A stretch of 64,000 nt of DNA from an uncultured Actinomycetes bacterium (GTDB lineage Bacteria; Actinomycetota; Actinomycetes; Nanopelagicales; Nanopelagicaceae). The position numbers were made by a program, and so were the translations under genes. Shown here piece by piece: positions 27,324-29,447 of the stretch. The stretch's first letter is position 1, and each line of letters begins with the position of its first letter. The stretch spans positions 91,896-155,895 of the forward strand of contig CALBFE010000099.1 of assembly GCA_937888825.1 (NCBI GenBank). Reading direction: 5' to 3'. Under the pieces are notes generated by a model that made no database searches, was not told the DNA's origin, and saw nothing but the letters and a program-made list of their open reading frames with translations.

Positions 27324-28763
27324 ATGCGTAGAGCAAAGATTGTGTGCACGATGGGCCCAGCAGTTGATTCTCCTGAAAAGGTGAAGGAGCTCATTGACGC
27401 TGGAATGAATATGGCACGTTTGAATCTCTCCCACGGTACATATGAAGAGCACCAAGCACGTCTTGATTGCGTTCGCGATGCAGCCAAAGCTGCCGGTCGC
27501 CCAGTTGCCATTCTTGTTGACCTTCAAGGCCCAAAGATTCGCCTGGCTCGCTTTAAGGCAGGACCACATGATTTAGCGCGTGGTGACATATTTGTTATTA
27601 CAACTGATGAGGTTGAGGGAACAAAAGAGCGCGTGGGAACCACTTACAAAGGTTTACCAGGGGATTGCAAAGCTGGGGATCGAATACTGATCGATGATGG
27701 CAAAGTAACAGTTGAAGTTGTTGAAGTTAAGGCAAATGATGTTGTTACTAAAGTTATTGAACCTGGCGCAGTGAGTAACAACAAGGGAATTAACCTGCCT
27801 GGTGTGGCAGTTTCAGTTCCAGCGCTATCTGAAAAAGACATTGATGATCTTCGCTGGGGCTTGCGAGCAGGAGCTGATTTCATCGCGCTCTCATTTGTTA
27901 GAAGCGCCGATGATATTAAAGATGTTCATAAGATTATGGATGAAGAAGGTATTCGCGTTCCAGTTATCGCAAAGATCGAAAAGCCACAAGCAGTCGAAAA
28001 TCTTGCTGAAATCGTTAACGCCTTTGATGGCATTATGGTTGCCCGCGGCGATCTAGGTGTGGAACTTCCAATAGAAGATGTGCCGCTGGTGCAAAAGCAG
28101 TGTGTTGAATTAGCTAGAGATATGGCTAAGCCAGTAATTGTAGCTACTCAGATGCTTGATTCCATGATTACGAATTCACGTCCAACGCGCGCAGAAGCAA
28201 CAGATTGCGCAAACGCAGTTCTAGATGGCGCAGATGCACTTATGCTCTCAGGTGAAACAAGTGTGGGTGAATTTGCAATAGAAGCCGTTCAAACAATGGC
28301 GCGCATCATTCAAAAGACTGAAGAAGGCGGCCTAGACCGTATTCGTCCAATTAAGACAGCCCCACGTACTAAAGGTGGAGCAATTACAAAGGCTGCAACT
28401 GAGGTAGGCGCAATTGTTGATGCAAAGTATTTAGTGGCATTTACACAAAGCGGAGACTCAGCACGTCGTATGTCGCGCTTGCGCTCACCTATTCCAATTC
28501 TTGCTATGACTCCAGAGGTTGGAACGTATAACCGGCTTGCACTGACTTGGGGCGTTGAATCAATGCTCACTCCAATTGTCGGCGCAACCGATGAAATGGT
28601 GAAATTGGTCGATACTGTTCTTATTGATTCAGGTCGCGCTCAATTAGGTGATCAAGTAATGATTGTTGCTGGATCTCCTCCTGGAATTCCAGGTTCAACG
28701 AACGCGATGCGCGTTCACCGCGTGGGAGATGCTGTTGGTGGGGTAGCTGCGGCTTACCGCTAA
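27324..28763 (+). CDS. pyk: Pyruvate kinase
   Basis: Last step of glycolysis, phosphoenolpyruvate plus ADP to pyruvate plus ATP. MRRAKIVCTMGPAVDSPEKV, the metal and substrate site VARGDLGVELP and the active-site IEKPQA lysine region are present. The C-terminal domain is complete but carries no extra PEP-utiliser-like domain. At 479 residues it is normal. AAGG stands eight bases before the ATG. It lies nine bases after gltD and may share its transcript. Confidence 0.97.
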   Translation: MRRAKIVCTMGPAVDSPEKVKELIDAGMNMARLNLSHGTYEEHQARLDCVRDAAKAAGRPVAILVDLQGPKIRLARFKAGPHDLARGDIFVITTDEVEGTKERVGTTYKGLPGDCKAGDRILIDDGKVTVEVVEVKANDVVTKVIEPGAVSNNKGINLPGVAVSVPALSEKDIDDLRWGLRAGADFIALSFVRSADDIKDVHKIMDEEGIRVPVIAKIEKPQAVENLAEIVNAFDGIMVARGDLGVELPIEDVPLVQKQCVELARDMAKPVIVATQMLDSMITNSRPTRAEATDCANAVLDGADALMLSGETSVGEFAIEAVQTMARIIQKTEEGGLDRIRPIKTAPRTKGGAITKAATEVGAIVDAKYLVAFTQSGDSARRMSRLRSPIPILAMTPEVGTYNRLALTWGVESMLTPIVGATDEMVKLVDTVLIDSGRAQLGDQVMIVAGSPPGIPGSTNAMRVHRVGDAVGGVAAAYR

Positions 28764-28791: not shown

Positions 28792-28864
28792 GCCTCGGTA
28801 CTCCAACGGTAGAGAGGGCAGTCTCAAACACTGCACAGTGTCGGTTCAAATCCGACTCGGGGCA
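28792..28864 (+). tRNA. tRNA-Leu (anticodon CAA), class I size with short variable loop
   Basis: A 73-base cloverleaf: acceptor GCCTCGG/TCGGGGC with two G-T pairs, T8, D-arm with 3-bp CTC/GAG stem and GG in the loop, anticodon stem GCAGT/ACTGC with loop CTCAAAC (T33, anticodon CAA), a five-base variable region ACAGT, and T-arm GTCGG-TTCAAAT-CCGAC. The discriminator is A and CCA is not encoded. Leu is assigned from the anticodon. Bacterial tRNA-Leu normally has a long variable arm, which is missing here, and the D-stem is irregular, so the molecule is atypical. It ends one base before the pdtaR start codon. Confidence 0.75.
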
Positions 28865-28865
28865 C

Positions 28866-29447
28866 ATGACACAAAAGGTTCGCATCCTCGTTGCCGAAGA
28901 TGAAGCACTCATTCGCATGGACCTTGTTGAGATGTTGCAAGTTGCTGGATATGAAGTTGTGGCAGAAGCATCTAATGGACAAGAAGCTATTGATCTAGCA
29001 AATGAACACAAACCAGATTTAGTAATCCTTGATGTGAAGATGCCGGTACTAGATGGAATATCTGCTGCAGAGAAAATTATTGATCTATCACCTGTATTGA
29101 TGTTGACAGCTTTTTCTCAAAAGGAATTAGTAGATAGAGCACGCGATGCCGGTGTGATGGCATATGTTGTTAAGCCATTTACCATCGGAGATTTAATCCC
29201 AGCTATTGAAATTGCAATCAGTCGTCATACGCAGATGCGCTCACTTGCAGCAGAAGTTGCCGATTTACATGATCGCCTAGAAACAAGAAAAATTATCGAT
29301 AGGGCAAAAGGTATTTTAATGAAGGCACTTAATCTCTCAGAACCCGAGGCATTTTCTTGGATTCAGCGGGCAGCTATGGATAGGCGAATGAGCATGAAAG
29401 AAATTGCAGAGGCGGTAATTAGCCCCGCTGCGGTACCTGAGCGTTAA
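28866..29447 (+). CDS. pdtaR: Response regulator with REC and ANTAR domains (PdtaR-like)
   Basis: Phosphorylation-controlled RNA-binding antiterminator. The receiver domain (about 1-120) has the acidic pair AEDEALIRMD, phosphoacceptor Asp56 in VILDVKMP, Thr in MLTAFS and Lys in VVKPF. The ANTAR domain (about 130-188) has LETRKIIDRAKGILMKALNLSEPEAFSWIQRAAMDRR. At 193 residues it matches the mycobacterial PdtaR type. The cognate PdtaS-like kinase is not in the window. The ATG is two bases after the last tRNA base with no ribosome site of its own, so its mRNA probably begins near the tRNA 3' end. No upstream in-frame start exists within the tRNA. Confidence 0.92.
   Translation: MTQKVRILVAEDEALIRMDLVEMLQVAGYEVVAEASNGQEAIDLANEHKPDLVILDVKMPVLDGISAAEKIIDLSPVLMLTAFSQKELVDRARDAGVMAYVVKPFTIGDLIPAIEIAISRHTQMRSLAAEVADLHDRLETRKIIDRAKGILMKALNLSEPEAFSWIQRAAMDRRMSMKEIAEAVISPAAVPER

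Follow-up and report, generated by a model that had tools for sequence, protein, structure and literature searches.

The tRNA-Leu(CAA) locus and its cloverleaf

The window, meaning the whole 64-kb stretch of actinobacterial DNA analysed here, carries a tRNA gene that lies between pyk and a pdtaR-like gene (Table 1). It is the sole tRNA called by ARAGORN in the window, as tRNA-Leu(CAA) at 28792-28865, and Rfam RF00005 matches 28792-28864 with 50.2 bits and an E value of 8.5e-08. Both confirm what an earlier reading, made from the letters alone (the sequence-only reading), had proposed, namely a 73-base tRNA-Leu(CAA) with a five-base variable loop.

Table 1. Features of the tRNA-Leu(CAA) locus, in coordinates of the window
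Feature	Coordinates	Strand	Basis
tRNA-Leu(CAA), short variable loop (class I) body, G1-A73, no encoded CCA	28792..28864	+	ARAGORN, Rfam, covariation
Anticodon CAA (positions 34-36), decodes UUG	28825..28827	+	ARAGORN
Leucine-type D-arm: 3-bp stem 10-12/23-25, open C13/A22, A14, A15, G18G19, A20a	28801..28816	+	
Five-base variable loop ACAGT; in the model, U48 forms a trans-Levitt pair with A15	28835..28839	+	
Discriminator A73, main leucine identity base (role per PMC9976931)	28864..28864	+	
Palindrome ACACTGCACAGTGT in the anticodon/variable region; neither conserved nor covarying	28828..28841	+	
pdtaR-like ANTAR response regulator; ATG one base past A73	28866..29447	+	
pyk (pyruvate kinase); 28 bases upstream of the tRNA; conserved neighbour	27324..28763	+	

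The acceptor stem consists of seven pairs, among them the two G-U pairs (U4-G69 and G7-U66) already recognized in the sequence-only reading, and the anticodon and T stems consist of five pairs each. The D-stem is built from three Watson-Crick pairs (10-25, 11-24 and 12-23) and C13/A22 are left open, so that the four-pair D-stem usual for class I tRNAs, in which 13 and 22 are paired, is not formed; these positions are paired in 39 of the 40 short non-leucine tRNAs examined. The variable loop has five bases, within the four or five that define class I and short of the arm of at least 10 bases with a stem that defines class II. A73 is followed directly by CATG and not by an encoded CCA.

Several lines of evidence bear on whether this fold is maintained. 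An equally good fold arose in only 7 of 200 dinucleotide shuffles of the window tRNA, and a near-identical tRNA with few changes is present in more than 30 genomes of the same genus, which are the close relatives of the window and measure 1.3-1.4 Mb. Among 19 diverse short tRNA-Leu relatives, standard pairs occupy 99.7% of the pair cells, double-sided changes occur at 16 of the 20 stem pairs as opposed to 9.3 in shuffles, and pairing falls to about half when the partners are slid by one base. On this comparative evidence, the cloverleaf of the short tRNA-Leu is evidently under selection as a tRNA. A degenerate tRNA or pseudogene was considered and rejected, given the near-identity across genomes and the covariation.

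The palindrome ACACTGCACAGTGT is present as the sequence-only reading had described it, but its suggested role as an alternative hairpin does not hold. Only 5 of the 28 same-genus rows preserve it, the other 23 having it broken; covariation supporting the hairpin was looked for and none was found; and in a simple fold the best structure containing it reaches -22.1 kcal/mol, compared with -24.0 kcal/mol, the hairpin being 1.4-1.9 kcal/mol less stable than the cloverleaf. The hairpin was rejected on these three grounds.

The junction with pdtaR

In the genus of the window the tRNA and pdtaR are co-oriented. Outside the genus the tRNA points away from pdtaR, and comparison of the two arrangements thus indicates that the tRNA-Leu(CAA) gene is inverted in the window's lineage. 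Among 28 informative same-genus genomes, the pdtaR ATG is located exactly one base past A73 in 21 (19 identified by script and two by reading), whereas in the other seven pdtaR has an ordinary 5' leader or a nearby start is lacking.

This spacing suggests that a working tRNA-Leu might double as the 5' leader of pdtaR: transcription would begin ahead of the tRNA gene, and maturation of the tRNA 3' end at A73 would free a leaderless mRNA beginning with C-AUG. We regard the prospects of this additional role as evenly balanced. Besides the recurrence of the one-base spacing, TANNNT boxes are found 14-19 bases upstream of G1 in many same-genus genomes, and a scan with a consensus that does not cover the promoters of this genus detected no promoter-like site between the tRNA and the ATG. 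Leaderless mRNAs are, moreover, common in Actinobacteria. Weighing against the role are the seven genomes with an ordinary leader or no close start and the orientation of the tRNA in other families, where it is directed away from pdtaR; in the window itself, moreover, the nearest TANNNT box lies 31 bases upstream.

Distribution and origin of the short form

A pattern search for short tRNA-Leu genes with a CAGTG core returned 104 of 397 genomes across the phylum. The CAA short form was found in at least 118 stretches in named genome contigs; those listed all belong to Actinobacteria by their titles, and the matches listed include Streptomyces, Mycobacterium, Bifidobacterium, Micromonospora, Nocardioides and Frankia. 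When 148 Actinomycetes genomes were searched with a pattern permitting any arm length, tRNA-Leu(CAA) proved to be short in 85 and long in 47, with no clear match in 16 and both forms in none. Two genomes that at first seemed to carry both (G522 and G053) were discounted, as ARAGORN did not recognize their long candidates as tRNAs. The short and long CAA forms are mutually exclusive even inside one genus (g19). The window gene is one case of a phylum-wide pattern and not an oddity of its genome.

Actinobacterial class I tRNA-Leu genes (annotated as CAA or UAA, 73-77 nt) resemble that of the window in the anticodon loop, the D-arm, the identity set discussed below and an NCAGT loop, and many also lie between pyk and pdtaR; what distinguishes the gene in the window's genus is its reversed orientation, in which it abuts the start codon of pdtaR. 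In one family (f20) the short tRNA-Leu(CAA) is of a second kind, with loops TGTTT, TGTGT or TGCCT and an open A13/A22, and perhaps arose independently. Short tRNA-Leu genes are also carried by phages of Streptomyces, Synechococcus, Prochlorococcus, Vibrio, Pseudomonas, Bacillus and Myxococcus. These resemble the window gene in the five-base loop and, mostly, in the identity set, which is complete in 84 of 104 short tRNA-Leu(YAA) of viral contigs; they differ in being phage-borne and in their anticodons, which are mostly UAA, with some CAA and UAG. Two further phage genes, from phages of Rhizobium and Lactobacillus, could not be resolved cleanly with the script.

The two forms occupy the same position in the chromosome. 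Sixteen of the 17 genomes inspected, seven with the short and nine with the long form, have the tRNA-Leu(CAA) gene beside pdtaR and pointing away from it. In 19 of the genomes whose tRNA-Leu(CAA) and polA genes share a contig, the two are 2-16 kb apart irrespective of form; from this common slot it follows that the forms are alternatives at one place. A polA tree, itself weakly supported, requires at least five changes of form. Both the shared slot and the repeated changes would suit an origin of the short form in which the resident long-armed gene recently and repeatedly lost its arm by deletion, with no separate old lineage behind it. We nevertheless consider this origin somewhat unlikely, because, when the variable region is set aside, the closest match of every one of the 34 tRNAs compared has the same form and usually comes from a different family, rather than being the alternative form found within the genus. 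The different loops of f20 (TGTTT, TGTGT), which may represent an independent case, also count against such deletion. The clustering by form favours an exchange in situ between two old tRNA bodies over a fresh loss of the arm, although the shared constraints of short tRNAs could produce the same clustering.

A fuller scenario can be offered only tentatively, and we judge it rather improbable in its entirety. The short tRNA-Leu would form an old lineage of its own, common to Actinobacteria and phages, whose members have repeatedly taken the place of the long CAA gene at its fixed slot, perhaps through recombination with phage copies; in the window's genus the gene would also have been inverted, with 3' processing setting the leaderless start of pdtaR.

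Leucine identity, LeuRS and the reading of UUG

The identity elements listed for tRNA-Leu of E. coli include A73, G18G19, A20a and contacts between the D-loop and T-loop (PMC9976931). The long arm is not crucial to this identity, and E. coli tRNA-Leu variants that lack both the anticodon arm and the long arm are still active (PMC9976931). The window tRNA carries A14, A15-U48, G18G19, A20a and A73, that is, all of the published leucine identity bases, as defined by rules that derive from E. coli and not from the window's lineage. Human mitochondrial tRNA-Leu(UUR) likewise has no long arm and is charged by LeuRS through A73 and A14 (PMC9976931); being mitochondrial, with its own LeuRS and a weaker fold, it does not count as a relative by the tests applied here.

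The same elements set leucine tRNAs apart within a genome. For a sister species whose genome is complete (G015; a single contig of 1,364,004 bases), all 39 tRNAs were read, and four of them are tRNA-Leu: CAA and UAA with five-base loops, and UAG and GAG with loops of 13 and 15 bases. A14, A15-U48, A20a, A73 and the open 13-22 are common to all four, the long-armed ones included, and this fingerprint is absent from the remainder of the 39. The D-stem that the sequence-only reading had taken to be irregular is therefore normal for leucine, with three pairs and 13-22 open as in all four of these tRNAs. The draft genome of the window has an identical four-member set (35 tRNA matches read). A hidden long-armed CAA gene was thereby rejected: the second, class II tRNA-Leu(CAA), for which the sequence-only reading had proposed a search, is present neither among these 35 matches nor among the 39 tRNAs of the sister genome. 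The tRNA-Leu(UAA) of the window's genome is also short-armed (loop CCAGT), and its CCA is encoded. Across genomes, the full identity set is present in 89 of 93 distinct short CAA tRNAs, in 23 of 23 short UAA tRNAs and in none of the 40 short tRNAs for other amino acids; of its elements, U48 was imposed on many loci by the search pattern and so is not independent, while the pattern left A14, A15, A20a, A73 and the open 13-22 free. Position 20a alone sets the four CAA exceptions apart. Class II bacterial tRNA-Leu shares A14, A15-U48, A20a, A73, the three-pair D-stem and the genomic slot with the window tRNA, and differs from it in an arm of 13-17 bases, a different body and G13/A22 in place of C13/A22.

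A single LeuRS gene is present in the genome, and its product matches NCBIfam TIGR00396 (leuS_bact) over the full model with 948.7 bits. The C-terminal domain aligns to the LeuRS of T. thermophilus and to that of 6q89, with the latter up to the last residues, and the leucine-specific insertion is missing, as it is from the LeuRS of AgnB2 and H. pylori (PMC5059758). The leuS frame starts within the upstream tRNA-Ala(GGC) gene. Two types of LeuRS exist in the class Actinomycetes, one of about 840 aa without and one of about 1000 aa with large insertions; counted by eye, the short type occurs with 9 short-armed and 5 long-armed tRNAs and the long type with 4 and 6, respectively. Since both types occur with both forms, no dedicated enzyme is required for the short tRNA, and a special LeuRS was rejected as a general rule. 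In structures, the C-terminal domain of bacterial LeuRS contacts the long arm, and in one model this contact pushes the CCA end into the active site (PMC5059758). The affinity or charging rate of the short tRNA could accordingly be lower, and its recognition by a LeuRS that lacks the leucine-specific insertion may differ in detail.

The meaning of UUG was assessed in one gene, polA. At its 14 UUG sites, 71% of the cells in 28 relatives are leucine, with a leucine majority at 10 of the 14, and in the same relatives the corresponding values are 67% for UUA sites and 57-83% for CUN sites. UUR codons occupy only some 5% of these cells in the relatives, so that the agreement is with leucines read by other tRNAs. 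UUG accounts for 65 of 400 leucine codons in seven genes of the window.

We are highly confident that the window gene is a working elongator tRNA-Leu that reads UUG, and that it would be provided with CCA, charged by the single LeuRS of the cell and used on the ribosome. The observations that carry this interpretation are the structure, the leucine fingerprint, the covariation, the lack of a long-armed CAA gene, the presence of UUG at leucine sites and the one normal LeuRS. The molecule has the leucine core (A14, A15-U48, G18G19, A20a, the three-pair D-stem, open 13-22 and A73) with a five-base loop in place of the arm, and in its lineage it takes the place of a long-armed tRNA-Leu(CAA) instead of occurring alongside one. 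LeuRS would be expected to recognize it via the elbow and A73, because these and not the arm are what bacterial LeuRS reads. Of the options weighed in the sequence-only reading, acceptance by LeuRS thus gains support, at the level of sequence, from the presence of every published identity element and from the fact that the long arm is not among them.

Charging by another synthetase, with UUG read as another amino acid, was a second option. It could appeal to the loss of a feature usual for tRNA-Leu and to the reassignment of leucine codons in mitochondria and yeasts (PMC7609411). It is very improbable, given that the leucine fingerprint is confined to tRNA-Leu in the sister genome and that the UUG codons of polA fall on positions conserved as leucine in relatives. 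The same form of tRNA is, moreover, found in Streptomyces, Mycobacterium and Bifidobacterium, in which UUG is read as leucine. Scarcely any likelihood attaches to the remaining option, a tRNA-shaped element that does not decode and serves only as a processing signal or regulatory leader: it would account for the position directly ahead of pdtaR, for an Rfam score that is low relative to other tRNAs of the genome and for the small energy gap to the alternative hairpin, but all stems covary, the hairpin is mostly broken within the genus, the gene is the only CAA tRNA of the complete sister genome, with no second, decoding copy elsewhere, and its position is not that of a conserved leader, as its orientation to pdtaR differs outside the genus, it lies on the strand opposite to pdtaR in other families and it is found at many positions and in many genomes where it does not lead pdtaR. 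What endures of the leader proposal is the possible second role of a decoding tRNA that ends one base before the pdtaR start in this genus.

In textbooks and reviews the long variable arm has been taken for a constant feature of bacterial tRNA-Leu (e.g. PMC7609411), and a search of the open-access full-text literature found no prior description of a short-armed bacterial tRNA-Leu. A study of the MenT3 toxin names tRNA-Leu-2, -3 and -5 of M. tuberculosis, and no others, as long-armed, which implies that the other two are short (PMC11541572). The short genes are known to databases, if not discussed, as phage records annotate tRNA-Leu and ARAGORN finds the bacterial ones. Most sampled Actinomycetes genomes break the long-arm rule for the CAA tRNA, and many break it for UAA too. 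They constitute a natural experiment on the requirements of LeuRS, in that a single enzyme, despite its arm-holding C-terminal domain, must handle tRNA-Leu of both forms within one cell, and they are relevant to how isotypes are called when genomes are annotated and to the question of which host enzymes are able to charge the tRNAs of phages. The genus of the window also has extra tRNA-Val-like genes with odd bodies, one with anticodon GAC and a seven-base loop and one with anticodon UAC, U14 and G73.
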